This document shows, in pieces, positions 1 through 23,362 of a DNA stretch of 64,000 nucleotides (position 1 is its first letter; each line of letters starts with the position of its first letter). The DNA lies in contig CALWSL010000012.1 in assembly GCA_944384205.1 (NCBI GenBank), positions 46,602-110,601 on the forward strand, in the 5' to 3' direction. The DNA comes from an uncultured Acetatifactor sp. (GTDB lineage Bacteria; Bacillota; Clostridia; Lachnospirales; Lachnospiraceae). Below the pieces are notes generated by a model. That model did not search any database and was not told where the DNA came from. It saw nothing but the letters and a program-made list of their open reading frames with translations. The translations under genes were made by a program, and so were the position numbers.

Positions 1-1075
1 ATTTGTTTAGAAAGCGGATTCGTTCGATAGCAGGTGCATAAGATTTGCATTTTGTATAATATTTTACAGCTTCTTCTGTGTTTCCCATACATTCATATAT
101 AACGCCGATATTGTAGTTTGCGCTGTAGCTGTTTACACCTTCCACGGAATAGCTGGAAATCGTCGTAGCCTTTTGAAATTCCCCAATGGCTTCCGAAAAC
201 ATTGCATTATTCATATAAATCAGTCCCATGAGAAACACGAAGTCAGCTCTTTTAGAAAAGATTGGATAAATGCCTTCTAATTCCAATGCTTTTTGGTACT
301 GCTTCAAATTAAGAAGGCAATAACCATAGGATTCTACCAATGTCTGAACATATTCAGCGCGCTCATCCAGCTCCATTGATAAGGCAGTCTCAAAATAGGG
401 CAAAGCATTTTCATAATTGGCTATACTGAAATAAGAACGTCCTAACTGATAATAAAGATAAGGATTGTCAGGGTGGGACGTCAGTTCTGCTTTCAAAAGA
501 GGAATATTCCGGAGCGCTTTCTGCTTCTGCAGTGCAGGTGTCTGATATCCGGTATGATAAAAACTAAGAGGAATGGACACATAATTCTTCGCTTCTCCGG
601 TTTTACTTGTCAGTTGTTCGTGTATGCTTCCCTCAAAGTGCATTTTACTTCTGTGAAAAAAGCGCGCGATATAGTCGGTGGTCATCACAGGAGCAGCGTC
701 CGGCTGCGTATACACGGCAGTGGGATTATGAAGGGTGAATACACCAATTTGCCCCGGCGTGATGTAGGAGGGCAGATTGGAAATAATACGGGCAGTCTGT
801 TCGTTCTCTTCCAGATATTCATCGCAATCCAGTATAAGAATGTAGTCGTTTTTGGCTTTTTGGATAGAGTAGTTTCTGGCAGCGCTAAAATCGTTTATCC
901 AGGGAAAAGAGTAGACCGCAGAGGTATATTTGCGTGCGATTTCAACTGTTTTGTCCGTAGAACCGGTATCCACCACAACAATTTCCCAGTCATACTTTGC
1001 CAGACGCATTAAACATTCTTTGATGCAGTTTTCTTCGTTTTTTGCTATGATACAAACGGAAACAGGTAACATCAT
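1..1075 (-). CDS. GT2 glycosyltransferase with C-terminal TPR repeats (3' end beyond the window)
   Basis: Seen: reading the minus strand from ATG-ATG at 1075/1072, the frame stays open to base 1, giving about 358 residues with no stop, so the gene is cut by the window edge. An AAAGGA ribosome site precedes the start. The N-terminus reads VSVCIIAKNEE, then VVDTGSTDKT and LDCDEYLEE, the nucleotide-sugar and DxD-like motifs of GT2 enzymes. The second half (from about residue 190) has TPR-like helices such as YYQLGRSYFSIANYENALPY. Family knowledge: such GT2-TPR proteins glycosylate proteins or peptides. It is divergent from flagellin, which makes a role in flagellar glycosylation plausible; the acceptor is not proven. 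Confidence 0.85.
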   Translation of the reverse strand, partial: MMLPVSVCIIAKNEENCIKECLMRLAKYDWEIVVVDTGSTDKTVEIARKYTSAVYSFPWINDFSAARNYSIQKAKNDYILILDCDEYLEENEQTARIISNLPSYITPGQIGVFTLHNPTAVYTQPDAAPVMTTDYIARFFHRSKMHFEGSIHEQLTSKTGEAKNYVSIPLSFYHTGYQTPALQKQKALRNIPLLKAELTSHPDNPYLYYQLGRSYFSIANYENALPYFETALSMELDERAEYVQTLVESYGYCLLNLKQYQKALELEGIYPIFSKRADFVFLMGLIYMNNAMFSEAIGEFQKATTISSYSVEGVNSYSANYNIGVIYECMGNTEEAVKYYTKCKSYAPAIERIRFLNK

Positions 1076-1222
1076 AAATCCTTTCGCTGAGTGGACTATA
1101 AGTAAAAAAGTAACTTATATTCATACTAACATAAGAAATAAGAGATTGCAAAAGATAAAATAATTGGTAGTTTTGTACAAAAAATATATATAAATTTGTG
1201 CAGAATTAAAATAAAAAAATGC

Positions 1223-1249
1223 TAAAGTAATCAATAAATCCTCCGATAT
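1223..1249 (+). promoter_or_regulatory. Sigma-28/SigD-type promoter of flagellin
   Basis: TAAA at 1223-1226 and CCGATAT at 1243-1249 are separated by 16 bases, close to the flagellar sigma factor consensus (TAAA-N15-GCCGATAA; Bacillus SigD CCGATAT). Transcription would start near 1256, giving a leader of about 185 nt before the flagellin ATG. This fits late-class flagellar expression. Confidence 0.8.
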
Positions 1250-1300
1250 ACTTAACAGGTAAAGCAAATAAAACAGAACAGTTTTATGCTTTTACAAAAA

Positions 1301-1415
1301 GGTAATCCGATGCAATCCGCACAATTGACAGGATTACCGTAACCGTTTACTGTAGGTGCGGCTTGTGCGAACCGGACAAACAGTAAACAAGTAAATTTGG
1401 CCGCAGGGAAGCGGC
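1301..1415 (+). promoter_or_regulatory. Structured flagellin 5' leader with three hairpins, CsrA-like site
   Basis: Three perfect inverted repeats are present: GGTAATCC 1301-1308 with GGATTACC 1331-1338; GTTTACTGT 1345-1353 with ACAGTAAAC 1380-1388; GCCGC 1400-1404 with GCGGC 1411-1415. The last hairpin has the loop AGGGAA, placing a GGA in the loop about 12 bases ahead of the AAGGAGG ribosome site at 1425. In Bacillus, CsrA represses hag by binding a GGA-loop hairpin plus the ribosome site; the same design here is inference. The rest of the 1076-1439 gap is AT-rich and shows no gene. Confidence 0.55.
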
Positions 1416-1439
1416 TTCATATTCAAGGAGGAATATATT

Positions 1440-2255: not shown

Positions 2256-2272
2256 TTCAGTAAAACAAATGA

Positions 2273-2301
2273 AGAGAGTCGGTTTTCCGGCTCTCTTTTT
2301 T
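2273..2301 (+). terminator. Intrinsic terminator after flagellin
   Basis: AGAGAGTCGG 2273-2282 pairs with CCGGCTCTCT 2287-2296 (one T-G pair) around a TTTT loop, followed by a T tract. It separates the highly expressed flagellin from the glycosyltransferases downstream. Confidence 0.93.
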
Positions 2302-2333: not shown

Positions 2334-4076
2334 ATGATTATATATTTTGAAACAGACGAAATCCAGCTACAGGATATTCCCAGGGTATTAAGTAAGATGG
2401 GATATTCTGTACAGAGTGCGGATTTGCAAATCAAGGCGCAGGAGTTTGACAGGGACGCTTGTGATAAGGTCATACAAATCTTAAAGCAGGAAGAAACAGA
2501 GTGCGCAATAACTTATAATTTTATAGAGACGATTTCCCAGGCATGTCTGGAGGCTGATGTGCCGTATATATCCTGGGTATATGACAATCCGCAGCAGGAG
2601 CTTTACAGCAGGTATGCACATTATCCATGTAATTATATATTTGTATTTGACAAGCTGCAGCAAAAGAGGCTGAAACAGACTGGTATCAGAAAGGTATATC
2701 ATATGCCTCTTGCAATTTATGGCGACAAAGTAGAAAGAGCGTTACAACAGAGAGAAAAATATGCCGGACAATACGAAGCGGAAGTTGCTTTTGTCGGGCA
2801 ATTATATAGAATAGAGAGTCTGGAAAGAATTATTGAACAGGCAGGCTCAAAGGTACAGGCGGCTATGGAGGAAAGTATAGCGGGCTGTTTTTTGAATTGG
2901 AAGCGTGAAACCAGGATGCACGGAACAATGACGGATGCTTGCGTGCAGTATTTTAGTCAGGTGGATGGACGTAAGGTGCTGACACAATGCCCCTTTATAT
3001 CGGAACAGTTTTATTATGAGGCGGCGGTGCTTAGCAGAATACTGGCAAATAGAGAAAGAGTTGCTATTTTAAATGATTTGTCAAAGCAGTATGATGTCAG
3101 ATTTTACACCTTTGACGAGGATGTAAAGGGTTTGCGTAAAGAGGTAAAGGTCTGTCCCGGTGCGAAATATGACATGGAGGTGTCACATGTCTATCAGCAA
3201 AGCAGGATTAATCTGAATATTACCCTGCATTGTATTGAAACCGGAATCTCGCAGCGGGTTTTTGATGTCATGGCGGCAGGCGGATTCCTTTTGAGTAATT
3301 ATCAGGAGGAACTGGAAGAATTATTTGTGCCGGGCGAAGATTTGGTACTCTATCATAATATGGAAGAATTGCACTATTATGTGGATTATTATCTCACCCA
3401 TGAGGAGGAACGGCAGCGGATTGCACGAAACGGACAAAGTAAGATTCTAAAATACCACGATTTTCAGAATCGCCTGAGAGCGGTTTTGGAAATTGTAGGC
3501 AAAGAGGAAGAAAAACGAACAGAAAGCTATTTGGATATTTTTCATCATGAAGAGGCAAAAATAGAAATGATGAAGGATTTGGCTTTGTGCCGTAATACAG
3601 AAATCAGATTGGGCATGGAGCGACTGTTTTATGGGATAGCGGATTTGGAGGATGCGGAGAACAGATATTTTGATGCCTGGGAATGCCTGCAGGGAATCAC
3701 AAAGCTGAGCGAAAAGGAACAATATACTTATTTATGTCAATTGATAAGCAAGAAAGAGATTCCGCGCTTATATATCATATGGCACATTTATATAAAAAAA
3801 GAAGACAGCGAGAGTATTCTGCTTAGATTGTGTGAGTGCATGAAGCGTCTTTCTATGGTGACTGCAATAGAGTTAGTGTCCTATGGACTGCTTATGACGC
3901 CCCAGTCCTCTGCGTTATTACTGAAAAAAGCGGAATGTCTCATGGAATTATCTATGTGGAAAGAGGCTTTGGAGACTTTAAGGCAAATGAAAGAGCCCCA
4001 GGGGGATATTTTGAAATTAATAAATACGCTGGAAAAGGCACTGGAAAGAAGGGGTGGAGATGGAAGCGAAATATAA
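2334..4076 (+). CDS. CgeB-like glycosyltransferase with long helical C-terminus
   Basis: A 580-residue protein of the CgeB/DUF3880 glycosyltransferase group, probably cytoplasmic. Seen: an N-terminal Rossmann-like part with WVYDNPQQELYS (about residues 82-93), then the signature block INLNITLHCIETGISQR, FDVMAAGGFLLSNYQEEL (about 296-330) and the HEEERQRIARNG helix shared by the three other CgeB-like genes here. Unlike those (384-394 residues), it carries about 190 extra residues of alpha helices, probably TPR-like. It begins 30 bases after the flagellin terminator and its stop overlaps the next gene, so it heads or belongs to the modification operon. Sugar donor and acceptor are unknown. Confidence 0.85.
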   Translation: MIIYFETDEIQLQDIPRVLSKMGYSVQSADLQIKAQEFDRDACDKVIQILKQEETECAITYNFIETISQACLEADVPYISWVYDNPQQELYSRYAHYPCNYIFVFDKLQQKRLKQTGIRKVYHMPLAIYGDKVERALQQREKYAGQYEAEVAFVGQLYRIESLERIIEQAGSKVQAAMEESIAGCFLNWKRETRMHGTMTDACVQYFSQVDGRKVLTQCPFISEQFYYEAAVLSRILANRERVAILNDLSKQYDVRFYTFDEDVKGLRKEVKVCPGAKYDMEVSHVYQQSRINLNITLHCIETGISQRVFDVMAAGGFLLSNYQEELEELFVPGEDLVLYHNMEELHYYVDYYLTHEEERQRIARNGQSKILKYHDFQNRLRAVLEIVGKEEEKRTESYLDIFHHEEAKIEMMKDLALCRNTEIRLGMERLFYGIADLEDAENRYFDAWECLQGITKLSEKEQYTYLCQLISKKEIPRLYIIWHIYIKKEDSESILLRLCECMKRLSMVTAIELVSYGLLMTPQSSALLLKKAECLMELSMWKEALETLRQMKEPQGDILKLINTLEKALERRGGDGSEI

Positions 4077-4992
4077 TGTGCTTATCATGATAACAGAGCG
4101 GGATTTCCTGCGTCTGAAAAGCAATTACCATCGTCTTGTAAAAAATATGCCTGCGCAGAAATTGATATTTGTGGGAAGTGAAGAGGTTGGAAAAGAGGTA
4201 GAGCAGTTAAATTTAGGGGAACGGGTAGATTTTATCAATGAAAATGATATCCTTCCCTTTGCGGATGTGAATAAGGTGATACAGAAAGCCTTACAGATAG
4301 AAGAGGTGCCACGAGGCGTAACAGGCTGGTATTATCAGCAGTTTTTGAAAATGCAGTATAGCTTCCTGTGTGAGGATGATTATTATCTGGTATGGGATGG
4401 AGATACGATTCCCTGTAAGCCGTTCGATATGTTTTGGAAGGATGGTGTTACGCCGTTCTTTGATTTAAAGCGGGAATACCATGAAGAATATTTTGTGACC
4501 CTGGGAAAACTTTTTCCGGGAATGCGTAAGTGTATTGAAGCCTCTTTTATCTCGGAGCATATGCTTATCAGACGGGATATTATGCAGAGCTTAATTGCGG
4601 ATATTATGAAAAATGAGCAGCTATCGGGTGACAGCTTCTATGAGCGAATCATTCATTGTATTGATCCGTCCGGGCTGACCTCTAATAGCTTTAGTGAGTT
4701 TGAAACCTATGGAACCTATACCTGCTTTAAATACCTGAATTCTTACAGGCTGCGATACTGGCATTCCTTCCGGTATGCAGGCTATTTCTTCCAGCCCGAC
4801 GAAATCACAGACTCGGATTATGAGTGGCTGGGAAAGGATTTTGATGCGGTTTCCTTTGAACGGGGACATACCGTCAGAGAAGACCATAAGGATATCTTTA
4901 CCAAAAAAGAGTATCAGGAAAAGCTTTCCGCCAGACAGATACTTGAAATTGCCCAGGAGGAGTTCGAGGAGGGCTATCTGGAGATTTGGTAA
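4060..4992 (+). CDS. DUF6492-like glycosyltransferase-related protein
   Basis: A protein of about 310 residues resembling the DUF6492 group, GT-A-like proteins found in polysaccharide clusters. Seen: NVLIMITERD at the start, FLCEDDYYLVWDGDTIP (a DxD-type metal site) near residue 110, then SEHMLIRRDIM and the segment GTYTCFKYLNSYRLRYWHS. The ATG at 4060 is preferred over the upstream GTG at 4054 because GAAGGGG lies five bases ahead of it. It overlaps the preceding CgeB-like gene by 17 bases, indicating coupled translation. Function as a glycosyltransferase is family inference; the donor sugar cannot be read. Confidence 0.72.
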   Translation: MEAKYNVLIMITERDFLRLKSNYHRLVKNMPAQKLIFVGSEEVGKEVEQLNLGERVDFINENDILPFADVNKVIQKALQIEEVPRGVTGWYYQQFLKMQYSFLCEDDYYLVWDGDTIPCKPFDMFWKDGVTPFFDLKREYHEEYFVTLGKLFPGMRKCIEASFISEHMLIRRDIMQSLIADIMKNEQLSGDSFYERIIHCIDPSGLTSNSFSEFETYGTYTCFKYLNSYRLRYWHSFRYAGYFFQPDEITDSDYEWLGKDFDAVSFERGHTVREDHKDIFTKKEYQEKLSARQILEIAQEEFEEGYLEIW

Positions 4993-5014: not shown

Positions 5015-6199
5015 TCAGTGAAACGAAGAAGAAATCACACGAATCATTTCTGCAGCCCGATGAGGATAAGTATGAAATTGCTTTACGGTTTCATAACCGT
5101 TTAGAGCGATTTGCTTTCTTTCCTCTTCGTGTTGCAGATAATAGGAACATTTGTCAATCAGCTCGTCCAGACTGCTATAAGCCTCTAAATCCCTTCCGAT
5201 TTCAAAATAATCTGTTAATTCCGCCTGATAGTTCGTCATCAGGAAACCGCCGCTTCCCATAATATCAAAGATACGAAGGGGGAGTCCGGTTTGAATGGGT
5301 TTAATGGTCATATTCAGATTGATTTTGCTCAAATGAAACACCTTGGGCATACCGGAAAGAGATTCGATGGCGTCGTGTGTGCGTACAAGGCGCAGAGGAG
5401 CGGTATCGCTGAAGGTGTACAAATCAACGCAGAAATGCTCAGCCAGTTTGTTCAGGGTTCGGATTCGTTCCGTTTCTGCGGTCTGGGCGCCGATATACTG
5501 GTGGGCAATGGTGTACTTATAAATATCTGTCAGTAATGGGAAAGGAGCTGCAAAATCGGGAATTACCTTTTTAAATTCAGAAATCAGGGTATCGGAGATT
5601 GCCTCCTCTATAAAATTGTAACCGTATACCTGTAGGGAGGATTCCACGATGCCGTCAATACAGCCCTTTGCATAGGCGGACAAATCCGTAAGTTCTTTCA
5701 AAGGATTCTTTTCGGAGTATAAGGAGCCTACGAAAGAAATATCTGCGCAGTAGCCGGTAATATCCTCTGCCGTGATTAACTGGATAACAGAATCAAATCT
5801 GTCAACAGCGGAGGCAAGCGGCAGGTAAAAAACGCAGTCGGGATTGAAGGGATGAATACGGTTGTATTGTTCCTTATCAAACAGGAAAATGCGATTGGTA
5901 GGGTGCAGCAGCGGCTTTGTAAATAAGGACATCACAGGACTGTCCACGGTCCAGCATACATACAAAACATTATGAATATGGCATACTTCGGCTATGGCAG
6001 GAAAAAAGTTTATGGTAAACACAAAGAGAGGGGAATACTTACAAAGTAACTCATTCACCAGCTTTGTGCGTGCAGCAGGGGAAAATGCTTTGTCATATAT
6101 TTCTGTTTTTTCTTCGATAACAGTTATGCCGAGAGAGGAAAAGGCGGTTATCATATCGGGTTCGCAGATACTGCCATATCGATAAAATAGTATGTTCAT
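5015..6199 (-). CDS. CgeB-like glycosyltransferase, opposite strand
   Basis: A 394-residue CgeB-like glycosyltransferase related to the other three here. Seen: LYVCWTVDSPVMSLF, NRIFLFDKEQYNR, KINLNMTIKPIQTGLPLRIFDIMGSGGFLMTNYQAEL and the terminal HEEERKQIALNGYE helix. The first ATG of the open frame is at 6223, but the paralogs begin right at the first beta strand (MNILFYRYG here, MKLLIYHWD in the next gene), so I start at 6199; the ribosome site there (GAGG, 11 bases away) is weak. It converges on the DUF6492 gene and diverges from the next CgeB-like gene, so it has a separate promoter and could be expressed under different conditions. Confidence 0.83.
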   Translation of the reverse strand: MNILFYRYGSICEPDMITAFSSLGITVIEEKTEIYDKAFSPAARTKLVNELLCKYSPLFVFTINFFPAIAEVCHIHNVLYVCWTVDSPVMSLFTKPLLHPTNRIFLFDKEQYNRIHPFNPDCVFYLPLASAVDRFDSVIQLITAEDITGYCADISFVGSLYSEKNPLKELTDLSAYAKGCIDGIVESSLQVYGYNFIEEAISDTLISEFKKVIPDFAAPFPLLTDIYKYTIAHQYIGAQTAETERIRTLNKLAEHFCVDLYTFSDTAPLRLVRTHDAIESLSGMPKVFHLSKINLNMTIKPIQTGLPLRIFDIMGSGGFLMTNYQAELTDYFEIGRDLEAYSSLDELIDKCSYYLQHEEERKQIALNGYETVKQFHTYPHRAAEMIRVISSSFH

Positions 6200-6216
6200 A
6201 TTGATTAAATACCTCA

Positions 6217-6245
6217 TTTCCATAGATGCTCAGATATGGTATAAT
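6217..6245 (+). promoter_or_regulatory. Sigma-A promoter, extended -10, for the long modification operon
   Basis: TATAAT at 6240-6245 is preceded by TG at 6237-6238 (extended -10), with TTTCCA at 6217-6222 as a 17-base-spaced weak -35. It lies about 65 bases before the start at 6310 and overlaps the 5' end of the divergent gene. Confidence 0.5.
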
Positions 6246-6309
6246 TGTAATATATTTTTGGGTACAAGGCAAGCTGCCTGTGAATGCGCAGCCTACTGGA
6301 GGAGAGAGC

Positions 6310-7464
6310 ATGAAGCTATTGATATATCACTGGGATTCTTATTTACAATACGACATCTTTCAGATATGCAGGGAAAAGAAGATAGATTTCCGCACCTTTG
6401 AATGGAAATTTAAGGATAAGAACCGTGATGAGGAATTTATCAAATGGTTTCAGGAAAATGTTGGCGAAGAATATGATGCGCTATTGAGCGTTAATTATTA
6501 TCCGTTATTATCGGAAGTGTGTATGAAGAAGGGGATGAAGTATATTGCATGGTGCTATGATACGCTCCTGAATGTGCAGAGAATAGAGGAAACATTAAAT
6601 AATCCGGTGAACTATGTGTTCCTTTTTGATAAAATCCAATGGTGGAAGTATGTCCAGCAGGGGTTTGAGACGGTATACCATCTGCCATTGGGAGTAAACA
6701 GGACGCGCTATGAGAATCTGAAAATTTCTGATGCAGATTACGGCAAATATGCTGCTGAGGTTTCCTTTGTGGGCAAGCTGTATCAATCCCCGTTACAGGA
6801 AGTAATCTCGCCGTTGGATGATTATACAAGAGGATATCTGCAATCTCTTATTGATATTCAATTTCAGATATATGGAAATTTTATATTTGATAAGATGATA
6901 TCAGAGGAATTGATTGACAATATAAATTCACAATATCTCAAAATAAATCCGGATACAACATTTCAACTCTGTAAGGCATCGTTGACCCAGGCAATGTCTG
7001 AAGAGGTTACCAGAAGAGAACGAATGATTCTGCTGAACCTGTGCGGGAAAAGATTTTGCACGAAATTTTATTCCTTTGACAAGGATCCCTTTGTAAAAAA
7101 TGTGATTGAATGTGGTCCGGTGGATTATGTACAGGAGATGCCTAAGGTATTTGCCTGTTCCAAAGTAAATTTGAACCCTTCCTTAAAGATTATACAGACA
7201 GGTATCCCGTTAAGGGCATTTGATATTATGGGCGCGGGAGGATTTCTGTTATCCAACTATCAGGAGGAATTTCTTGATTATTATGAAAATGGAACGGATA
7301 TGGTGATTTATGAAAGTATGGAGGATGCGGTAGAGAAGATACAGTTTTATCTGAAAGCAGAAGCTATCCGCTGTAAAATTGCAGAAAATGGAAGAAGAAA
7401 GACGTTAGAGGAGCACAGCTTGCAGGGATGTATGGCAAAAATCTTTGAAACAGCAGGAATTTAA
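6310..7464 (+). CDS. CgeB-like glycosyltransferase
   Basis: A 384-residue CgeB-like glycosyltransferase. The start at 6310 is chosen over upstream in-frame codons because GGAGGAGAG ends four bases before this ATG and the sequence then matches its paralogs (MKLLIYHWD). Seen: YIAWCYDTLLNVQR, NYVFLFDKIQWW, AAEVSFVGKLYQSP, VNLNPSLKIIQTGIPLRAFDIMGAGGFLLSNYQEEF. It begins a run of same-strand genes with short gaps or ATGA overlaps extending to 18.6 kb, so it is probably the promoter-proximal gene of a long operon containing the phosphonate genes. Substrate unknown. Confidence 0.86.
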   Translation: MKLLIYHWDSYLQYDIFQICREKKIDFRTFEWKFKDKNRDEEFIKWFQENVGEEYDALLSVNYYPLLSEVCMKKGMKYIAWCYDTLLNVQRIEETLNNPVNYVFLFDKIQWWKYVQQGFETVYHLPLGVNRTRYENLKISDADYGKYAAEVSFVGKLYQSPLQEVISPLDDYTRGYLQSLIDIQFQIYGNFIFDKMISEELIDNINSQYLKINPDTTFQLCKASLTQAMSEEVTRRERMILLNLCGKRFCTKFYSFDKDPFVKNVIECGPVDYVQEMPKVFACSKVNLNPSLKIIQTGIPLRAFDIMGAGGFLLSNYQEEFLDYYENGTDMVIYESMEDAVEKIQFYLKAEAIRCKIAENGRRKTLEEHSLQGCMAKIFETAGI

Positions 7465-7485
7465 GGTACAGGGCGGACAGGATAT

Positions 7486-8652
7486 ATGAAAATGAATTTT
7501 CAGAAAAAAATATTACTGATTATGACAAATATAACTACAAAGAATATGCGGGTATATTTGCAGCAGATAGGGTACGAAGTGACTGAGTGGATGGCGCCGT
7601 GTGAAGGCGATTCGGATAAATGTGGGGAGGCGCTGGCAGACGCGCTCGACGACAGCTATTACGGCGCGTTTTCCTATGACTATTTTCCCCAGTTTGCACA
7701 GGCGTGTTATGAACGGAACAAGTATTATATTGCCTGGGTTGTGGACAACCCGCATTTTTCCTTATGGTCGAAGACAGTGAAATATCCGACGAACCGGATA
7801 TTTGTTTTTGATAACAGTCAGTGTGGGCAGCTGGAGAAGCGGGGAGTGGAGAAGCTATTTTATCTGCCCCTTGGGGCTGACGTGGACGCCTTTTCCAAAG
7901 TAGATTATAGCAATCAGGATTTTACGGCGGATGTAGCCTTTGTAGGAAGCCTGTATAATGAAGATTCGAGAAATCTGTTTCAGCAAATTAAATTTCTTCC
8001 GCCATATACCAGGGGATATGTAGAGGGTTTGATTCGCTCGCAGCTCAATCTGTCTGAAAATATTCTTAACAAGGACATGATTTCAAATTCTGTCTGGCAG
8101 GATATAAAAAGATATGTGAATCTTTCGCAGGTCAATAGCTATGATTTTTCGTATGAAGAATGTTTTGTACATATTCTGCAGAAGGAAGTGACCAAAAGAG
8201 AGCGTTGTCAGGCGGTAACGTTATTAAATAAATTTTTTGACTTTAAATTATACAGCGCGTCTTCCACGGAATTTAATCCTGAATTGAAGAAAGCGGGATA
8301 TGTTAATTACGAAACACAGATGCCTTTGGTGTTCCGTCAAAGCAGAGTGAATATCAATATCACACTGCGCTCCATTACCACAGGAATCCCGCTGAGGGCG
8401 CTGGATATTATGGCGTGCGGAGGGTTTCTGTTATCCAATTATCAGGTGGAACTGGCGGAATATTTTGAGGAAGATAAGGAATGTGTTTTCTACTATGATT
8501 TGGAAGATATGGTAATGAAAACAGATTATTATCTGAAGCATGAAGAGGAAAGAAGAAAAATTGCGGAAGCCGGTTTGCGGAAGGTTCAAACCGAATTTTC
8601 TCTGAAAGGTCAGTTAAGTAAAATGAAGGCTATGCTGGAGGAGAATGAATGA
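7486..8652 (+). CDS. CgeB-like glycosyltransferase
   Basis: A 388-residue paralog of the preceding gene. Seen: YYIAWVVDNPHFSLWSK, NRIFVFDNSQCGQLEK, TADVAFVGSLYNED, VNINITLRSITTGIPLRALDIMACGGFLLSNYQVEL and KHEEERRKIAEAG. AGGA lies about six bases before the ATG at 7486. It overlaps the LicD gene downstream by four bases (ATGA at 8649-8652), a sign of translational coupling. Tandem paralogs of this type usually add successive sugars to one glycan; that is inference. No membrane segment or signal peptide is visible. Confidence 0.86.
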   Translation: MKMNFQKKILLIMTNITTKNMRVYLQQIGYEVTEWMAPCEGDSDKCGEALADALDDSYYGAFSYDYFPQFAQACYERNKYYIAWVVDNPHFSLWSKTVKYPTNRIFVFDNSQCGQLEKRGVEKLFYLPLGADVDAFSKVDYSNQDFTADVAFVGSLYNEDSRNLFQQIKFLPPYTRGYVEGLIRSQLNLSENILNKDMISNSVWQDIKRYVNLSQVNSYDFSYEECFVHILQKEVTKRERCQAVTLLNKFFDFKLYSASSTEFNPELKKAGYVNYETQMPLVFRQSRVNINITLRSITTGIPLRALDIMACGGFLLSNYQVELAEYFEEDKECVFYYDLEDMVMKTDYYLKHEEERRKIAEAGLRKVQTEFSLKGQLSKMKAMLEENE

Positions 8653-10942: not shown

Positions 10943-10943
10943 A

Positions 10944-12224: not shown

Positions 12225-12240
12225 GTTCGGAGGACAGTAC

Positions 12241-13371: not shown

Positions 13372-13373
13372 GG

Positions 13374-14078: not shown

Positions 14079-14111
14079 ACGGCAAAAAAGTGCAAAGCTG
14101 AGGAATGTGGA

Positions 14112-15230: not shown

Positions 15231-15257
15231 TGAAGAGTCATTGGAAGGGAGGACGAT

Positions 15258-16700
15258 ATGAGTAAAAAATGGAAGCAGAATATCAAGGAATTATTAGGAA
15301 CAGTGAAGGACGGATTTGCAGTTCTGGAAACAATGGATTCGGCGGCACTCATTGAGTTCTTGCAGACGATGCAGGAAGCAGTTATACATATCGGTAACTC
15401 AATTGAGAAGCAAATTGCAGATTGTGAACAGATCATAGAGACATTGACGGAATTGGCAGAAAGGATTTATGAGTTAAGTTTTGATGGCAATCATTTGAAA
15501 TATAAAAATCTGGAAAAAGCCAAAACCCTGTGTGAAAAGGCAGAAAAAGAAATGGATATAGGAATCCCGGATGTCTATGAGATTCTCTTTCTGCCTTATA
15601 AGGTGTCTATGTGGGATGCCTTGGAAACTATATATGAGGCAGCGATATTGGAAAAGGATTGTCATGTAACGGTTATGCCGATACCGTATTATCATATGAC
15701 GGAAGATAGGAGTAATGTGGAACTGGAGTACGAAGGAAATCAATTTCCGCGTAATATTGAGATTACTGATTATAGAAAATATGATATTCCGGAAAAATTT
15801 CCGGACGTGATATTTATTCACAATCCTTATGACGATCACAATCTTGTTACGCAGGTACCGCGTTGTTATTTTAGTTCAGAACTGATGAAATATACAGATC
15901 ATTTGGTATACATCCCTTATAAAGTATGCGCTGAAAGAGTGAGAGATAGTTTTTGTGTTATGTCGGGAGTGAGAAATGCATGGAGAGTGTTTGTACAGTC
16001 GGAGACGGTACGTGAGGTATATATAAAATATAATCCTCAGGAGAAAATCGTTGTAACCGGGTCACCGAAGATTGACAAGGTAATTCGGAATGCGCAATAT
16101 CCGCCCCAAATGCCTGAGGAATGGAAATCAGCGCTTGATGGCAAAATTGTATTCCTGCTGAATACTCATTTGAATAGTATTATTAATCATTCAGAAGAAA
16201 TGATTAAGGAAGTAGAGGGACTAATTGCGTTTTTTGAGAAAAGAGAGGATATAGCCCTGTTATGGAGACCACATCCTCTTAGCGTAGAAACAGCAAAGAC
16301 AATGAATATTAAGACGGTACGGGCGTATCAGCAGCTTGTGGAAAGATTCAAAGAACTGAAAAATGGTGTATTCGACCAAACGTCAGATCCCCATCAGGCA
16401 ATTGCACTTTCCAATGCGTATATTGGGGACTGGAGTTCCATGGTGATGATGTTTGGTGTGACAGGGAAACCGATATTTATCAGAACGACTGCGTTAGACT
16501 GGAATATGGCGGGAAAAAGATTAAAATCGATAGATTATGAGGACACAGTCAAGCTTGAGACATTTATCGATATGATTGTAACGGGTAAGGATACCGGCAG
16601 AGAGGACAGAAAGGAAGAGTTTGCAGGTCTTTTTGCGAGAACAGACGGTAATTCGGGAAAGCAAATTTGGGAGTATGTGAAGAATGCTTTGGAAGAGTGA
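15258..16700 (+). CDS. CDP-glycerol glycerophosphotransferase-like protein
   Basis: A 480-residue TagB/TagF-related protein. Residues 1-100 are a helical domain common in lachnospiral members. The rest is a GT-B-like fold with YFSSELMKYTDHLVYIPY, VVTGSPKIDKVI, LLWRPHPLSV (the RPHP motif) and SNAYIGDWSSMVMMF near the end. Family knowledge: these enzymes transfer glycerol-phosphate from CDP-glycerol to teichoic acids or glycans. In a phosphonate operon, a CMP-phosphonate donor is also possible. The C-terminal half of the LicD fusion at 8649 is a degenerate relative. GGGAGG precedes the ATG. Confidence 0.83.
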   Translation: MSKKWKQNIKELLGTVKDGFAVLETMDSAALIEFLQTMQEAVIHIGNSIEKQIADCEQIIETLTELAERIYELSFDGNHLKYKNLEKAKTLCEKAEKEMDIGIPDVYEILFLPYKVSMWDALETIYEAAILEKDCHVTVMPIPYYHMTEDRSNVELEYEGNQFPRNIEITDYRKYDIPEKFPDVIFIHNPYDDHNLVTQVPRCYFSSELMKYTDHLVYIPYKVCAERVRDSFCVMSGVRNAWRVFVQSETVREVYIKYNPQEKIVVTGSPKIDKVIRNAQYPPQMPEEWKSALDGKIVFLLNTHLNSIINHSEEMIKEVEGLIAFFEKREDIALLWRPHPLSVETAKTMNIKTVRAYQQLVERFKELKNGVFDQTSDPHQAIALSNAYIGDWSSMVMMFGVTGKPIFIRTTALDWNMAGKRLKSIDYEDTVKLETFIDMIVTGKDTGREDRKEEFAGLFARTDGNSGKQIWEYVKNALEE

Positions 16701-16714
16701 GGAGAGGACACTGT

Positions 16715-17308
16715 ATGATAGAACCATATAAAAAATGCCTGAAAAAGATACCGGCTTCAATCGAAGAGCTGCAAAGGCTTACAGACGAGCTGTACGAGCA
16801 GATAGGGGAGGAGACCAGACAGGCAAGGGCAGAAAAAGGCAGAGTTGTGAAAGTCATTGATATGGTATTAAAACTGAAGGGTACAGAAATGTTTTCACAG
16901 TTGAAGAGAATCGTATCCGGTGATCTTTTTCAAAGTATTCAGAGGTATGATGACGAGTTTCTAACCTTCGAGAGAGTGCTGTCCATTTATGAGGAAGAGA
17001 AAAGTGCAGGGAAAACTTCCCTTTTAGACTGGGTGAGCTCTGTAGCAGAGCTGCAGGAAATCTATGCGAAGACCTTTTTTGGAATGCGCAGATTAGAGCT
17101 GGATATGCCGAAGGCAAGTAAAGAGGAATTCCTTCAACTGATTGTACAGTATGATATGTCTGCAATCTATCTGACAAATATGTGGAATTGGCATCCTTTT
17201 TATAACCCTGGTTATTTGGTGCAGCAGTTGATGATATTGCTGAGTGAAAATGGGAAGGAAGCTTTGTGTGAAGAGATATATGGGCGAATAGAGGAAATGG
17301 ATAAGTAG
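16715..17308 (+). CDS. Helical protein of unknown function
   Basis: About 197 residues; I do not recognise the family. The start at 16715 is chosen because GGAGAGGA lies six bases before this ATG; the open frame upstream overlaps the previous gene. Composition suggests a cytosolic, nearly all-helical protein without signal peptide or membrane segment (for example SIEELQRLTDELYEQIGEET), with an aromatic patch NMWNWHPFYNPGYL near residues 160-173. It sits in the operon between a glycerophosphotransferase-like protein and a glycosyltransferase with gaps of 14-15 bases. It may be an accessory or scaffold subunit of the modification enzymes; that is a guess from position. Confidence 0.7.
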   Translation: MIEPYKKCLKKIPASIEELQRLTDELYEQIGEETRQARAEKGRVVKVIDMVLKLKGTEMFSQLKRIVSGDLFQSIQRYDDEFLTFERVLSIYEEEKSAGKTSLLDWVSSVAELQEIYAKTFFGMRRLELDMPKASKEEFLQLIVQYDMSAIYLTNMWNWHPFYNPGYLVQQLMILLSENGKEALCEEIYGRIEEMDK

Positions 17309-17323
17309 AGGAAGTACATATAC

Positions 17324-18649
17324 ATGGATGATAAAAAAATATGTTTTATTATTTGTTCTAATAATCAATTATATCTGGATGAATGTTTGTTTTATATCAG
17401 TCAGTTGGAAATACCGGAAGGATATAGTGTGGATGTTATGAGTATTGCAGAGGCAAAAAGCATGACATCCGGTTATAATGAGGGTATGAAGGCAACCGAT
17501 GCAAAGTATAAGGTATATATACATCAGGATGTGTTTATTTTGTATAAAGGATTTTTAAAGGCGGTAATAGATATTTTTAAATCAGATTCCAAAATCGGCA
17601 TGATTGGCATGGTGGGTGCGCCCAAAATGTCGGCAAGCGGCGTTATGTGGTTCGGTATGAGAGAAGGTTCGTTATATATGCTGCGGCATTGCCAGGAATC
17701 CTATCAGGAATATGAGTACCGTCTGGAGGATGGTCTGCATGATGTGGAAGCGGTTGACGGACTGATGATAATCACCAGTGTTGATTTGCCGTGGAGAGAG
17801 GATATATTTGATGGATGGGACTATTATGATGTATCGCAAAGCTTTGAATTTTTGAGGAAGGGATACCGGGTAGTAGTTCCTGAACAGAGAAATCCATGGT
17901 GTCTGCATGAGGACGGAATCCTTAATTTTTCTGATTATGATTCTTATGTCAGGAAGGGAAGAGAGGAGTATCCGGAGTTTTTCCAGGGAATAAAGACGCT
18001 CTATAAAAGGAATGAGTGGAGACAGGAATGTCAGGTGACAGTCTTGTTAGTGGTACAGAATCAATCGGAGCTTCTCAGGCAGCAGCTAAGGATGATGGAA
18101 CTGCTTCGGGGAAATATACGGACACGAATCATTGTTGTAGACAACGGCTCAGAGGATGGCTTGTGTGATTGGCTGCAAAGCCAGCAAAAGGTGGAATATA
18201 TTTGCTGGGAGCTTGCAAGGGAAAACTATGCTGTTGTGCTGAATACTGCCATACGGGAATTTGAAATTGAGCAGGACATTCTGCTGGTTTCTCCAATAGA
18301 GCTGCTGCTGCCGGGATGTCTGGATATAATGTATGGTGCCTTGCATTGTTCAGAGGAGGTAGGGGCAATCGCAGCTAATTTGTTACACTTAGGGATGGAG
18401 GAAGTGCCGGATCTTCAGAGCGCACTTACCTATGTACAAGGAAAAGAACGGACAGCAAATGTGAAGGGTATCGGGAAGCTGCCAGTGACCGGTGTGATGA
18501 TAAAGAATCAAATGGTGCAGCAGATCGGCGGGTTTGATGAGACGCATTCTGCGTTACCGGGGGTGCTGGAGGATTTTTCTGTCAGAGCAAGCAGAGAAGG
18601 CTTTGTCTTTTACGAGATGGAGGATGCCTATATCTGTCAGGTCAGGTAA
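17324..18649 (+). CDS. Two-domain glycosyltransferase (GT2-like)
   Basis: A 441-residue protein with two tandem GT-A-like domains. The first (about 1-215) has FIICSNNQLYLDECL and YKVYIHQDVFIL, the HQDV metal motif of the Glyco_tranf_2_5 group. The second (about 230-441) has VTVLLVVQNQSELL, IIVVDNGSEDGLCDWL and SPIELLLPGCLDIMY. This second domain is clearly related to the N-terminal domain of the protein at 20861, which has IVVDNGSGDGLGQWL and SPGLMVLPGCIETLY. It is the last gene of the rightward run before the opposite-strand SGNH gene. Sugars unknown. Confidence 0.8.
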   Translation: MDDKKICFIICSNNQLYLDECLFYISQLEIPEGYSVDVMSIAEAKSMTSGYNEGMKATDAKYKVYIHQDVFILYKGFLKAVIDIFKSDSKIGMIGMVGAPKMSASGVMWFGMREGSLYMLRHCQESYQEYEYRLEDGLHDVEAVDGLMIITSVDLPWREDIFDGWDYYDVSQSFEFLRKGYRVVVPEQRNPWCLHEDGILNFSDYDSYVRKGREEYPEFFQGIKTLYKRNEWRQECQVTVLLVVQNQSELLRQQLRMMELLRGNIRTRIIVVDNGSEDGLCDWLQSQQKVEYICWELARENYAVVLNTAIREFEIEQDILLVSPIELLLPGCLDIMYGALHCSEEVGAIAANLLHLGMEEVPDLQSALTYVQGKERTANVKGIGKLPVTGVMIKNQMVQQIGGFDETHSALPGVLEDFSVRASREGFVFYEMEDAYICQVR

Positions 18650-18675: not shown

Positions 18676-19689
18676 TTATAGTGGCAGTATTTTTTCCCAT
18701 ACAGGCTGAGCCAGCGTCAAAGCGCGCTGACTTAAGTGGCAGTGGTCCGCAGAGAGATATTCTTCAATGGTTTGAAAATCTTCCGTAATCATTTGCTTAA
18801 ATACAGACAGGAAACCGATGTGGTGTTGTCTGCATCCGGCGGCTAACTGTTCGTTAAAGTATGCAGTTGCCAGATTGCGTTCTGTCTCAGTGCCGCTTCT
18901 GGGAAACTCGGGATCTATGGGGCATACATCCCGCTGGGAGGCAATAGGACCCCAGCAGGAAACAAGGTAACCTCTTTCCTTTAAAGAGACAAGGAAAGGA
19001 AGGTATTCCGTAAGAATATCATCCACAATGTCCTGATAGGTCCGCTGCTGTAATACGGTCTGACGAAATACATGTACCCGGAGATCAATTTCTCCAAGAC
19101 AGCATATGATATGAGCGTTTGGTTTAATAAAATTACGGCACAAAAAATCCACTTTCTCGCGAAAGTGAGTAGAGGTGTCCGTTTGATTACAATGATAAGC
19201 CAGACAGGGACCCAGATGTAATGCGGTAAAGGGATGGGCTGTAGCATTTGGACAGATATTGATGTCATTTCCTATCGGGACGAATGACAGTGATTCATTC
19301 CCGCTGAAAAAGTTGACATGGGAGTCACCCAGTACAATAATGGTATTATTGACATAATGCTGTAAGCGTGCTTCGTTGAAATGTGCCTGTCTTGTTATGG
19401 TATCGGTGTAATCCGCATCAGGAAGCATTTGCAGAGCAAAAACCAATTCTTTTAACATGCTGGTAATGGCAGAAACATCAGGAGCGGAAAGATAGTTGTC
19501 AATCGCAACGAAGCGTTCGGAGAAGAGCTGCCTGATGGTCTGAAGCTGGGCAGCAGGATACAGTTCCGCGCGGTATTCCAGTTCCGTGGAAAAGCACAGT
19601 TTTAAATCCTCCCATGGTATTTGAAACAGGGAAGAGGGATTGGTTTCTATTGTGTGGATAAGCTTAAGTACAATTTCTGCTGTTTTCAT
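18676..19689 (-). CDS. SGNH-family hydrolase/acyltransferase with N-terminal helical module
   Basis: A 337-residue protein. Residues 121-124 read GDSH, the block I nucleophile motif (serine at 123), GEIDLR matches block III, and SADHCHLS near the C-terminus supplies the block V Asp-x-x-His pair, so the catalytic triad is present. No signal peptide is seen, so it should act in the cytoplasm. The first 100 residues are homologous to the first 100 of the divergent gene at 19765 (IPWEDLKLCFSTELEYR against IPIADIKQCVSAEIEV, and LQMLPDADYT against LDMLSDAIYT). Likely role: acetylating or deacylating a sugar of the glycan; substrate unknown. Confidence 0.75.
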   Translation of the reverse strand: MKTAEIVLKLIHTIETNPSSLFQIPWEDLKLCFSTELEYRAELYPAAQLQTIRQLFSERFVAIDNYLSAPDVSAITSMLKELVFALQMLPDADYTDTITRQAHFNEARLQHYVNNTIIVLGDSHVNFFSGNESLSFVPIGNDINICPNATAHPFTALHLGPCLAYHCNQTDTSTHFREKVDFLCRNFIKPNAHIICCLGEIDLRVHVFRQTVLQQRTYQDIVDDILTEYLPFLVSLKERGYLVSCWGPIASQRDVCPIDPEFPRSGTETERNLATAYFNEQLAAGCRQHHIGFLSVFKQMITEDFQTIEEYLSADHCHLSQRALTLAQPVWEKILPL

Positions 19690-19764: not shown

Positions 19765-20868
19765 ATGGACAAGACGAAAGAATTATTAATGAAAATCAGG
19801 ACTGCGGCTGCGGAAGGAAAGCTTCCAACGGAAAATATTCCCATTGCGGATATCAAACAATGCGTATCTGCAGAAATAGAGGTTTATCGGAATACGGTGA
19901 CAGAGAGCCAATACTTGAGTATTTTGGAGAGTTATGAAAGAGTAAGTGCAGATATTACGGAAGAAGAGTGTGAAAAGCCCAAGGTAATTCTTTGGCTGGA
20001 CGCTATGCTTCTGTGTCTGGATATGTTGTCAGATGCCATATATACTCTGGCGAACAGAGAGTATTGGGAGTATAAGCATCGCCATCATTTGCAGGACCCG
20101 CAGATTCAGGAGATTATAAATTATATTGATAAAAAGCACAGGGTAAGTCTGCTGAACTATGGTTTTGTAGATGACTATATGAAGCAGCCGGTGGAGTCGT
20201 ATCTTGACGAGGACTGTCAGATGCTCTACATACCTTATAAGGGACGAAGGATGTATTTTCCAAGAAGCTGGGATGAGGAGAGGAGCATCCAGTATTTTCG
20301 TTCGTTACTGGCGGAGCAGGATGTGCGCTCTCCCCATTGCTATCGACATAACGGGTATGGCGTAAAGGAAGGGGATGTTGTGGTAGATGTGGGGGCAGCG
20401 GAAGGAATCTTTACTCTGGATATCATAGATATTGCCGGAAAGGTGTATCTGCTGGAAGCCGATAAGGAATGGCTGGAAGCATTACGGCAGACCTTTCAGA
20501 AGGATGGGGAAAAGGTTCAGATTATTTATGGTTTTGCGGATTGCATTGCAGAAGGTGACAGAGTAACGCTGAATTCTCTTTTTACAAAAGAGATAAATTA
20601 TATTAAAATGGATATTGAAGGGTATGAGAAGGCGGCATTGCAGGGGGCGGACAGACTTCTGACCGACTGTGAAAATCTGAGATGTGCAATCTGCGCCTAT
20701 CATTGCAGAGAAGATGAAGAATGGATTCGGAACTATCTGCAGCGATATGGTTTTGTGACGGATGTGTCAGAAGGGTATATGTGTCCTGACTGGACCGTGG
20801 AAGCGTATCTGGAAGCGGAGCTTCGCAGAGGTATTGTATTTGGAAAAAAGGAGAAAAAGCATGATTAA
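19765..20868 (+). CDS. FkbM-family methyltransferase with N-terminal helical module
   Basis: A 367-residue protein. Residues 1-100 are the module shared with the SGNH protein at 18676. From about 200, the SAM-dependent methyltransferase follows: GDVVVDVGAAEGIFTLD (motif I), VYLLEADKEW, then INYIKMDIEGYEKAALQGA, the MDIEGxE hallmark of FkbM. FkbM enzymes O-methylate sugars and other small groups. GGAGG precedes the ATG. Its stop overlaps the next gene by eight bases. It may methylate the flagellar glycan or the hydroxyl or phosphonate end group. Confidence 0.87.
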   Translation: MDKTKELLMKIRTAAAEGKLPTENIPIADIKQCVSAEIEVYRNTVTESQYLSILESYERVSADITEEECEKPKVILWLDAMLLCLDMLSDAIYTLANREYWEYKHRHHLQDPQIQEIINYIDKKHRVSLLNYGFVDDYMKQPVESYLDEDCQMLYIPYKGRRMYFPRSWDEERSIQYFRSLLAEQDVRSPHCYRHNGYGVKEGDVVVDVGAAEGIFTLDIIDIAGKVYLLEADKEWLEALRQTFQKDGEKVQIIYGFADCIAEGDRVTLNSLFTKEINYIKMDIEGYEKAALQGADRLLTDCENLRCAICAYHCREDEEWIRNYLQRYGFVTDVSEGYMCPDWTVEAYLEAELRRGIVFGKKEKKHD

Positions 20869-22231
20869 AAATACAGAGATGCGTATCGTTATCATTGCCG
20901 GAAATCAATTGGAAGCGGTAAAGAGTACAATAGAGTCAGCCAAAGTATTTTCCGGTTTGGAGGAAAGTCAGTTTATTGTTGTGGATAATGGTTCCGGAGA
21001 TGGTTTGGGTCAGTGGTTATCGACACAGCAGGGCTTTGATTACATGATTTTTGAAGATGCGGCGGAAGGATATGCCGGAATTTTAAATGAGGTGATAAAG
21101 CAGTTTGTCGGAGAAGAGGATTTGCTGGTATTATCTCCCGGCTTGATGGTATTACCCGGGTGTATTGAGACATTATACGACGCGTTGGAGGAGGATGAGC
21201 AGACAGGGGCAGTTTGTGCAAGAATGATTTCAAACAGATCTGAAGAAGGAAAGAGCTTCAGTAGCGCGGCAGAGTATGCCGCACTACATGCAGAACCGGA
21301 AGGGAAGACGGAAATATTAGGACTCCCTTATGAGGGGGTTTTGATTCGGAATGAAATGCTGCGGGAGTTAGAAGGCTTTGACAGCCAATTCCTTTTGCCG
21401 GGCAGTACCATGGTGGATTTTGCGTTTCGGGGCATAAAGAAAAATTATCGCTATTACGAAGTTCAGAATGCCTTTTTCTATAAGATATCGGATAGTGAAA
21501 AGATATTTTTTGAGAAATTTGGCAGGGATGTTGACAGACCGGTTCTCAAACAGAAGTGGGAGATGAATTATTTTAACGAATATCCGAATTATATGCTGCT
21601 GTCCTTTGTGGAGAAGGAAAAAGAAGAGGAATTTTCCGTTTTAGAGATTGGATGCGACTGCGGAGTGAATCTTTTACGTCTGAAAAATGAATATCCGAAT
21701 GTGCAGTTATATGGCGTGGAAATTAATGCCGGCGCAGCGGAAATTGCATCTCATATTGCACAGACCCAGGTTGCCAATATTGAGGATAAGTCTCTGGATT
21801 TTGCAGGAACCAGATTTGATTATATTATTTTTGGAGATGTTCTGGAGCATTTGAGAGACCCGGAGGGAACCATAGGGTATTGTAAAAGCTTACTGAAAGA
21901 GGATGGACGGATTCTGGCATGTATTCCGAATCTCATGCACTGGTCCGTTATGTATCAGTTGATGAATGGTAATTTTACATATACGGACACGGGACTTTTG
22001 GACAGGACACATATACATTTCTTTACCTTTAATGAGATTGTAAGTATGTTTCAAAGAGCAGGCTATGAGATAGACCAGATGACCTATACCGGAGGAGGAC
22101 AAATTACGGAAGATGTCAGGGCGTTTGTCAACAAATTGCTGAGCCTTTCCAACATTTCCGAAGAGTTTATGTTTTATGCTTTTCAATATATTGTTTCGGC
22201 GAAAAGAAGAATTTCAGATAACTGTCATTAA
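20861..22231 (+). CDS. Glycosyltransferase-methyltransferase fusion
   Basis: A 456-residue fusion. The ATG at 20861 is chosen because AAGGAG precedes it and the GT domain begins at once (MRIVIIAGNQ). Residues about 1-215 are a GT2-like domain (IVVDNGSGDG; GVLIRNEMLRELEGFDS). Residues about 255-450 are a class I SAM methyltransferase of the ubiG/methyltransferase-11/23 type: FSVLEIGCDCGVNLL (motif I), YGVEINAGAAEIA, FGDVLEHLRDPEG and LLKEDGRILACIPN. A single protein would add and methylate a sugar. Its 3' end overlaps the convergent fliB-like gene by 18 bases. Confidence 0.85.
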   Translation: MIKNTEMRIVIIAGNQLEAVKSTIESAKVFSGLEESQFIVVDNGSGDGLGQWLSTQQGFDYMIFEDAAEGYAGILNEVIKQFVGEEDLLVLSPGLMVLPGCIETLYDALEEDEQTGAVCARMISNRSEEGKSFSSAAEYAALHAEPEGKTEILGLPYEGVLIRNEMLRELEGFDSQFLLPGSTMVDFAFRGIKKNYRYYEVQNAFFYKISDSEKIFFEKFGRDVDRPVLKQKWEMNYFNEYPNYMLLSFVEKEKEEEFSVLEIGCDCGVNLLRLKNEYPNVQLYGVEINAGAAEIASHIAQTQVANIEDKSLDFAGTRFDYIIFGDVLEHLRDPEGTIGYCKSLLKEDGRILACIPNLMHWSVMYQLMNGNFTYTDTGLLDRTHIHFFTFNEIVSMFQRAGYEIDQMTYTGGGQITEDVRAFVNKLLSLSNISEEFMFYAFQYIVSAKRRISDNCH

Positions 22232-23362
22232 CAACAATCCTGCGTCGCTGATGGTATTGTTTTCAACTAACTTGTCGGTTAAAAGCCGGCGGAAAGCTTC
22301 AGAATGCTCAAAGGTTCTGCTGATACAGGATATAATGTAGATATATTCATCGCGATTCAGTTTTTTGTTATTGTTTACAAAAGATGCTAAAGCAATAGTC
22401 TGAATGAGACAAAATTCGGCGGCAATATAAATGAACTTTGTTTTTACAAGCTCGTAGTCGGGAATTTCCAGGCTGTCGGAAAAGATGCGGTATACCCAAT
22501 AATTCGTGTAAAAAGATGTATAATCCTGAATGGCTGAGCGAAATGCTGCCATGTCAGACAAATACTGTTCAAAGCTGGTTTGAGCAAAATAGTTATTTGT
22601 CAGTCTTATCAGTTGTGAAAAGCGCTCAAGAACTGGCTTCCTATACAGTATTGTCTGCAATTTCCGTAAGAAGCTATAACGATTGGCTTCACTGACAGCA
22701 TGACTTAATTGTACATCAAGGGAATGCAGGGTATTCTCCTGAAAGTATAAGTTAATATGCGGACTGAGAGAATGATAGTCAATTTGCCCGGTTTGATAAA
22801 ATTGTATTGCCGTTTCCAAAATTTTATAGGATACGAATAGTCGGGTGCTGAGTGTAACAGAAGGAAAGCATTGGAGAATATCTACAATGCCAGTGTGGAC
22901 AGAGGATTCATAAAAATATAATTTTGTGTATTCATATTGGGGAGCAGGCGACTCGTCCTCTGTAAAGTCAAATTGTATACTTTCTTTGTTCATCAGCTTG
23001 TCAATTACATCGGGGCAGGACATACTTAAGTAACCTTCTAAAACGCTGCCATATTGATGACCCTTGCGGGGATAAATTCGACAGGTATCAGATAAATATT
23101 CGGGACCGAGTTTGAGAACAACTTTGCATAAATTATTGTTATCAAGCATGTAACAGCGCTGGTTTTCCAATTTGGCACAAATGCCATTGTCTGTTTCAAT
23201 CAGCCAGTCTTTGGCGGGTACATCCAATTGCTCTTCATGTTCTGCCATCTTTTTACAGGTTGCTTCATCTATGATGATACGCCAGCCGGCGCAGCAGGTA
23301 TTAGGGCAGGCGCTGGCAATACATTTAAAATCTTTATACAAGTCTACTGTGAGATAATTCAT
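22214..23362 (-). CDS. fliB: FliB-like flagellin lysine-N-methylase
   Basis: A 382-residue protein. The first ATG of the frame is at 23413, but GGAGAAA followed eight bases later by the ATG at 23362 and the typical start MNYLTVDLYKDFKC support 23362. Seen: a cysteine-rich N-terminus, CIASACPNTCCAGW, with ICAKLENQRCYMLDNNNLC and LSDTCRIYPR further on, the pattern of FliB proteins that methylate lysines of flagellin. A sigma-A-like promoter lies at 23404-23432. It closes the island that starts with flagellin 20 kb away, linking the whole region to flagellin modification. Confidence 0.85.
   Translation of the reverse strand: MNYLTVDLYKDFKCIASACPNTCCAGWRIIIDEATCKKMAEHEEQLDVPAKDWLIETDNGICAKLENQRCYMLDNNNLCKVVLKLGPEYLSDTCRIYPRKGHQYGSVLEGYLSMSCPDVIDKLMNKESIQFDFTEDESPAPQYEYTKLYFYESSVHTGIVDILQCFPSVTLSTRLFVSYKILETAIQFYQTGQIDYHSLSPHINLYFQENTLHSLDVQLSHAVSEANRYSFLRKLQTILYRKPVLERFSQLIRLTNNYFAQTSFEQYLSDMAAFRSAIQDYTSFYTNYWVYRIFSDSLEIPDYELVKTKFIYIAAEFCLIQTIALASFVNNNKKLNRDEYIYIISCISRTFEHSEAFRRLLTDKLVENNTISDAGLLLMTVI

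Follow-up and report, generated by a model that had tools for sequence, protein, structure and literature searches.

A flagellin island of an uncultured Acetatifactor that probably encodes its own phosphonate supply

We analysed a 64,000-nucleotide stretch of DNA from an uncultured Acetatifactor sp. of the Lachnospiraceae (the window; G000:C12:46602-110601 of a 3.15 Mb genome, where labels of the form G### denote genomes and L### loci), in which a flagellin gene is followed by glycan genes and an operon containing a phosphonate cassette. This locus probably serves the glycosylation of flagellin and itself supplies the phosphonate for it. As the preliminary description had proposed, naming a surface polysaccharide as the alternative, flagellin appears to be the target, because the linkage is conserved in relatives, a CDP-glycerol-transferase-like protein of the cassette (GlyphT) is tied to flagellated genomes, and no export machinery was seen in the island; these same findings make the polysaccharide less likely. 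In published work, 2-aminoethylphosphonate (AEP) was found by mass spectrometry on the N-acetylglucosamine of Clostridioides difficile type A flagellin in 2022 (PMC8861647), and a review from 2025 refers to flagellin glycans with phosphonate moieties (PMC12645811). A flagellin phosphonate as such is thus already known, and the earlier phrase "a new kind of flagellar glycan" was too strong. What is new here is a putative genome-encoded flagellin phosphonylation cassette, probably of the 2-hydroxyethylphosphonate (HEP) type.

The operon (6226-18649) comprises 11 co-directional genes whose intergenic gaps range from -4 to +33 bases. It includes the one PepM of this genome (10944-12224, + strand), whose phosphoenolpyruvate (PEP) mutase domain (residues 147-403) carries the motif EDKVGLKKNS (EDKxxxxxNS) at residue 257 and scores 412.9 bits with TIGR02320 (cut-off 319.55). 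The phosphonopyruvate decarboxylase Ppd (12241-13371, +) passes the equivalog model TIGR03297 with 451.8 bits against 312.5. An iron-dependent alcohol dehydrogenase (Fe-ADH; 14112-15230, +) is the predicted phosphonoacetaldehyde reductase, and TIGR03405, the model for phosphonate Fe-ADHs, is its best NCBIfam match. Judged at the level of enzyme families, PepM would convert PEP to phosphonopyruvate, Ppd would yield phosphonoacetaldehyde, and the Fe-ADH would presumably reduce this to HEP. The route from PEP to a reduced C2 phosphonate, called complete in the preliminary description, stands for PepM and Ppd, both above equivalog cut-offs, and by family membership for the Fe-ADH.

A feature absent from the preliminary description is an N-terminal cytidylyltransferase domain fused to PepM (residues 5-120, PF01467), which has the HxGH motif as HGGH. 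Among solved structures it is closest to 5x3d (E 1.6e-29; 50/116 aligned residues identical, 43%), an entry which the PDB table labels merely PEP phosphomutase and which we take to be the structure of the Fom1 cytidylyltransferase domain. The Fom1 domain is reported to make the cytidine monophosphate (CMP) derivative CMP-HEP (PMC6697681). Given that the cassette combines the Fe-ADH and a Fom1-like cytidylyltransferase, and that a Pfam scan of its proteins revealed no AEP transaminase, the predicted donor is most likely CMP-HEP. Conservation of HxGH was considered as proof of HEP and rejected, since the motif is common to the whole PepM clade.

Three caveats attach to the HEP assignment. HxGH is kept in 124 of 125 PepM loci (128 were tallied, three of which do not cover the stretch), and hence does not on its own separate HEP from AEP; the Fe-ADH reaches 220.4 bits with TIGR03405, against a curated cut-off of 423.7; and the cassette holds a second, MobA/LicC/PntC-like nucleotidyltransferase of the LicC/PntC/inositol-phosphate type (13374-14078, +; Pfam and NCBIfam). 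This last enzyme, and a DegT-type aminotransferase gene upstream of flgN, would suit a flagellin decorated from another donor, for example AEP, or a CMP-phosphonate made by the LicC/PntC-like enzyme instead of the fused domain. The usual substrates of DegT proteins are nucleotide sugars, which weighs against such a role. AEP is, moreover, the phosphonate of C. difficile flagellin (PMC8861647), and characterised PntC enzymes favour it (PMC6697681). Set against this are the presence of the Fe-ADH where no transaminase was seen, and the kinship of the fused domain to 5x3d, with Fom1 reported to activate HEP (PMC6697681). We consider a different donor unlikely.

We next asked how the phosphonate might reach a glycan. 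The operon encodes two LicD proteins, LicD1 (8649-10016, +) and LicD2 (10013-10942, +), which at 125.4 and 134.9 bits both exceed the PF04991 gathering score of 22.6. We built a LicD tree from 52 proteins at 36 loci, a biased sample in that it was gathered solely from PepM loci and flagellin islands. In this tree LicD2 groups in a clade of 10 rows (support 99/97), to which 8 of the 11 LicDs directly beside PepM belong; it is the predicted phosphonate transferase. LicD1 falls in a separate 17-row clade (support 95/96), every row of which comes from a flagellin-bearing genome, including the PepM-less G344. Its LicD domain is followed by a C-terminal part resembling the C-terminal half of GlyphT (27% identity, 36/134), with the RPHP motif absent. 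Because LicD1 and LicD2 fall in separate clades, the window operon, as judged from these sequences, unites a putatively phosphonate-linked LicD, a flagellin-island LicD and GlyphT. The survey thereby separates LicD enzymes into PepM-linked and flagellin-island lineages and gives specific enzymes to test.

The cassette was then traced in relatives. A scan of named genomes found 84 PepM relatives, of which 80 loci were kept. We defined an orthologous-cassette set as the window genome plus genomes whose PepM is 69-89% identical to that of the window, six in all. The order LicD2-PepM-Ppd-nucleotidyltransferase-FeADH-GlyphT is kept in the window, L010 and L013 and, with an insertion, in L086; L011 has the same cassette genes reordered, and L012 a partial cassette in which no Ppd was seen. 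PepM and flagellin lie on the same contig and strand, ~6 to 35 kb apart, in five of the six genomes. For the sixth (G536), cassette and flagellins fall on separate contigs, and the one with the flagellar genes breaks off among glycan genes ~5 kb beyond flagellin. PepM sits between two flagellin genes in G535. At L013, the cassette is flanked by orthologues of window-genome genes that lie upstream of flgN (DegT 85%, GT2 75%), and flagellin comes after the cassette with one GT2 gene between.

Across 397 genomes of the family, PepM occurs in 46 and flagellin in 213. Flagellin is found in 32 of the 46 PepM genomes and in 181 of the other 351 (Fisher P 0.027), a weak association, and PepM presence alone was accordingly discarded as a sign of flagella. 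In 9 of the 32 genomes that carry both genes, no more than 35 kb separates PepM from flagellin or FlgL, where at most 2.4 would be expected at random placement (P ~4e-4, with distances and flagellin clusters entered manually from tables and with relatives that are not independent). Within the genus of the window, 35 of 138 genomes carry PepM; flagellin is present in 34 of these 35, and is within 35 kb of PepM in at least 9 of the 35.

A further tie to flagella comes from GlyphT (15258-16700, +), which scores 38 with PF04464 (Glyphos_transf; gathering cut-off 22.1). RPHP, which we take to be the motif of PF04464 CDP-glycerol glycerophosphotransferases, is invariant in all five aligned GlyphT rows, including that of L012, for which Pfam gave no match. 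A structure model (pLDDT 69) gave weak fold matches (TM ~0.4), and those listed are all UDP-GlcNAc 2-epimerase-type chains. In a survey accepting E values up to 1e-20 and scoring at most four candidates per genome, GlyphT was found in 76 of the 397 family genomes, and flagellin in all 76 against a base rate of 213/397 (hypergeometric P 1.4e-24, without kinship correction; the 76 genomes span 66 genera). By hand count, at least 32 of these genomes have GlyphT no more than 35 kb from flagellin or FlgL, and in G335, G119 and G086 it is less than 1 kb away. This tie makes GlyphT a further family to test.

The membrane content of the island also bears on the target. In a simple hydropathy scan of positions 1 to 23413, none of the proteins exceeded one predicted membrane span, consistent with cytoplasmic addition such as flagellin would undergo. 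The same scan found no flippase or membrane oligosaccharyltransferase of the PglL (lipid-carrier) type in the island, and lipid-carrier glycosylation was set aside because no flippase-like protein was seen there. Among PepM loci, multi-span proteins are absent from 13 of 16 flagellin-linked loci and from 19 of 66 others (Mann-Whitney P 0.0016), with open reading frame calls in GC-rich loci including spurious frames. The linked group consists of 8 named sources, the window included, and 8 of 12 further stretches (4 second pieces were left out); within this group, multi-span proteins do occur in L138 and L149, and also in one frame of L015. The other group consists of 66 of 73 named loci, 7 having been dropped for spanning less than 8 kb, and it includes L086, L026 and L018 from flagellated genomes, with the L026 flagellin ~9 kb from PepM. 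In G536, an eight-span EamA permease is encoded near the cassette. Proteins of PF01973 (MptE-like), the family to which we assign Maf, occur in the islands of L012, G139, G157, G188, G532, G535 and L026.

Several findings speak against a flagellin island that makes its own phosphonate, and some of them favour instead a phosphonate on surface polysaccharide or teichoic acid whose genes merely neighbour flagellin. PepM was not found near flagellin in 23 of the 32 genomes having both, and the PepM-linked LicD2 clade extends to L062, L078 and L087, where no flagellin was found. Among flagellated genomes GlyphT is not enriched with PepM (14/32, P 0.20); the GlyphT family is therefore tied to flagella and not phosphonate-specific. 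A Pfam scan found no PF01973 protein in the window island. The preliminary description had offered relatives with the cluster but without flagella as a counter-test: 14 of the 46 family genomes with such a PepM have no flagellin, whereas all six genomes with the orthologous cassette do have it. Bacterial phosphonate capacity is, furthermore, said mostly to tailor cell surfaces (PMC6697681). The polysaccharide explanation must contend with the same-strand linkage in five of six genomes, a window island without multi-span proteins, the confinement of GlyphT to flagellated genomes, and the PF01973 proteins of sister islands, and we judge it quite improbable.

Our preferred explanation, a self-supplied flagellin glycosylation island, would work as follows. 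Flagellin (1440-2255, +; 271 aa, a short form; PF00669 3.5e-45, PF00700 1.2e-24) would be glycosylated in the cytoplasm ahead of export. A GT2-TPR protein (2-1075, - strand; L160:1999-3075; PF00535 1.9e-21 plus TPR), encoded between the FliT-like gene and flagellin, is the candidate initiating flagellin glycosyltransferase and probably starts on Ser/Thr, with CgeB and GT2 enzymes presumably extending the chain. The cytidylyltransferase domain of PepM may activate HEP to CMP-HEP, as its homology to Fom1 suggests, and LicD2 would then move the phosphonate onto a sugar of the flagellin glycan, as expected from its PepM-linked clade. GlyphT and LicD1 may serve the same glycan with the same or a second phospho-donor. 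Since Fom1 belongs to fosfomycin biosynthesis (PMC6697681), the operon could alternatively be thought to make a diffusible phosphonate natural product. We regard this as very improbable because no exporter or recognisable resistance gene was found among the operon proteins; the route is, in addition, surrounded by LicD transferases and glycosyltransferases.

We compared the island with four known systems. In the C. difficile type A locus (CD0240-CD0244), CD0244 is glycerophosphotransferase-like and CD0242 phosphocholine-cytidylyltransferase-like (PMC4441256), so that, by description, both loci encode such a pair. Both also place genes for a phosphodiester-linked group on a flagellin sugar in a flagellar locus, in our case as a prediction from genes. 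The window operon differs in its built-in phosphonate route, its predicted HEP and its LicD transferases. A Pfam scan of 20 island proteins, one of which has no family match, revealed no counterpart of the phosphoserine-phosphatase-like CD0241. Fom1 shares the fusion of an N-terminal cytidylyltransferase domain to a PEP mutase; here, however, the neighbours are flagellin and glycan genes rather than antibiotic tailoring genes. HEP has reportedly been found on actinobacterial phosphonoglycans. The PntC/LicD phosphonyl tailoring clusters likewise combine PepM with cytidylyltransferases and LicD-like transferases, but their description concerns AEP on cell-wall glycans, and "flagell" is absent from the main text of that paper (PMC6697681). 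In Prochlorococcus, phosphonate is also proposed on protein-linked glycans, but there the cluster encodes PglC as the initiating enzyme, together with the flippase Wzx and the oligosaccharyltransferase PglL (PMC8931226), unlike the window island with its lack of multi-span proteins. Among the titles and abstract openings covered, which leave out most subscription journals, we found no description of a phosphonate pathway in a flagellin locus.

Related loci suggest that the flagellin islands of this family exchange phospho-donor modules. The PepM-less G344, of the same genus, has LicD and CgeB genes and a cytidylyltransferase-aminotransferase fusion downstream of fliS, and G536 (L158:390-4057) has a lic-like set (LicD, choline-kinase-like protein, nucleotidyltransferase and EamA permease) directly before its phosphonate cassette. 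A broader picture, plausible to us but held tentatively, is that gut Lachnospiraceae swap phospho-donor cassettes behind flagellin (CMP-HEP here; phosphocholine-like and cytidylyltransferase-aminotransferase sets in relatives), and that a dedicated operon gives this flagellum a hydrolysis-resistant HEP coat, attached in the cytoplasm by a LicD specific for phosphonate; this would be the first genome-encoded flagellin phosphonylation system.

Such a system would matter in two ways. For C. difficile, the flagellin phosphonate is chemistry without known biosynthetic genes: no pepM is known there and the origin of the AEP is described as an open question (PMC8861647). The window operon would give a genetic basis, in another species, and a probable gut commensal with a phosphonate route inside its flagellin island makes both the genetics and the chemistry of flagellin phosphonylation testable. 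Because flagellin is a major bacterial antigen and a TLR5 ligand, a stable phosphonate coat could also alter how the immune system recognises the flagellum, how phages bind it or how its filament packs.

The fusions of relatives were seen at several loci. A cytidylyltransferase joined to a class I/II aminotransferase occurs in the flagellin islands of G344 and G535 (L150:11427-13274 and L152:1-1425); L154:3182-4984 and L156:13748-15604 resemble it by BLAST and length only.

Most of the remaining gene content agrees with the preliminary description, whose flagellin, four CgeB-like proteins, two LicD proteins, CDP-glycerol-transferase-like protein and methyltransferases were all recovered with Pfam. 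It had placed the GT2-TPR enzyme between flagellin and a FliB-type lysine methylase; both ends of that bracket are real (FliB, 22214-23413, -; NF038110 203.1 bits against a cut-off of 85), but the GT2-TPR gene is upstream of flagellin and thus outside it. Behind flagellin come CgeB-like glycosyltransferase 1 (2334-4076, +; PF13524, PF12996, DUF3880/Glyco_trans_1_2), a DUF6492 protein that is possibly a glycosyltransferase (4054-4992, +; PF20102 1e-7) and CgeB-like glycosyltransferase 2 (5015-6223, -). CgeB-like glycosyltransferases 3 (6226-7464, +) and 4 (7486-8652, +), like the second identified by Pfam, open the operon; all four CgeB-like proteins are of the DUF3880/Glyco_trans_1_2 type. Beyond GlyphT, it continues with a protein without Pfam or NCBIfam match (16715-17308, +; 197 aa, or 213 aa if the start is 16667) and closes with a Glyco_tranf_2_5 glycosyltransferase (17324-18649, +; PF13712 5.9e-81). 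An SGNH-hydrolase-like protein follows (18676-19689, -). Its earlier naming as an SGNH enzyme holds for the GDSH, GEID and DHCH-like motifs read in the sequence, whereas Pfam and NCBIfam gave no match and a PDB search only spurious ones. Between it and FliB lie an FkbM-type methyltransferase (19765-20868, +; PF05050) and a GT2-methyltransferase fusion whose start codon is uncertain (20762-22231, +; PF00535, PF13489).

The preliminary description had also not covered the genes upstream or a hairpin after flagellin. The 20 kb upstream of the window encode an ATP-grasp protein, two FkbM methyltransferases, an ornithine-cyclodeaminase-like protein, the DegT aminotransferase and a GT2. After these come flgN, two flgK-like genes, flgL, fliW, flaG, fliD, fliS and a FliT-like gene; apart from flagellin, the flagellar genes were named by reading the sequences, and BLAST finds the same series in relatives. 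A terminator-like hairpin (2271-2298, +; 12 pairs and a T-rich tail) stands directly 3′ of flagellin. Upstream, at 1223-1248 (+), is a match to what we presume to be the sigma-28 promoter motif; its position is apt, though the window has two such matches against a chance mean of 0.74, and 18 of 100 shuffles reach two. A similar match precedes flgN, where the count is equalled in 44 of 200 shuffles. Because shuffles equal the counts this often, we give these sites little weight; GCCGATA alone occurs at chance level. Genome-wide there are four Flagellin_N matches, from three flagellins and FlgL, and the stretches read around the other two flagellin loci (C19, C17) hold no such island.

Other loci contained further arrangements. 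L014, L017 and L015 are Oscillospiraceae-labelled. L014:5166-13863 has, in a row, flagellin, an unclassified 660-675 aa protein, an APS-kinase-like protein, PepM, a fusion of radical SAM and cytidylyltransferase-like domains, and Ppd. L017 is like it, and L015 is so by tblastn only, Pfam having been run on L014 only; loci of this type constitute a second, different phosphonate set beside flagellin. The Methanobrevibacter-labelled L020, L025, L030, L031 and L080 carry PepM-Ppd-nucleotidyltransferase sets, most with an Fe-ADH match. G290:C10:105132-121472 has nine Flagellin_N matches in a row over ~16 kb. Finally, at 23697-25717 of the window, a YhgA-like transposase-family protein adjoins an apparent partial type I restriction-modification gene with an N6_Mtase end and a weak specificity domain.

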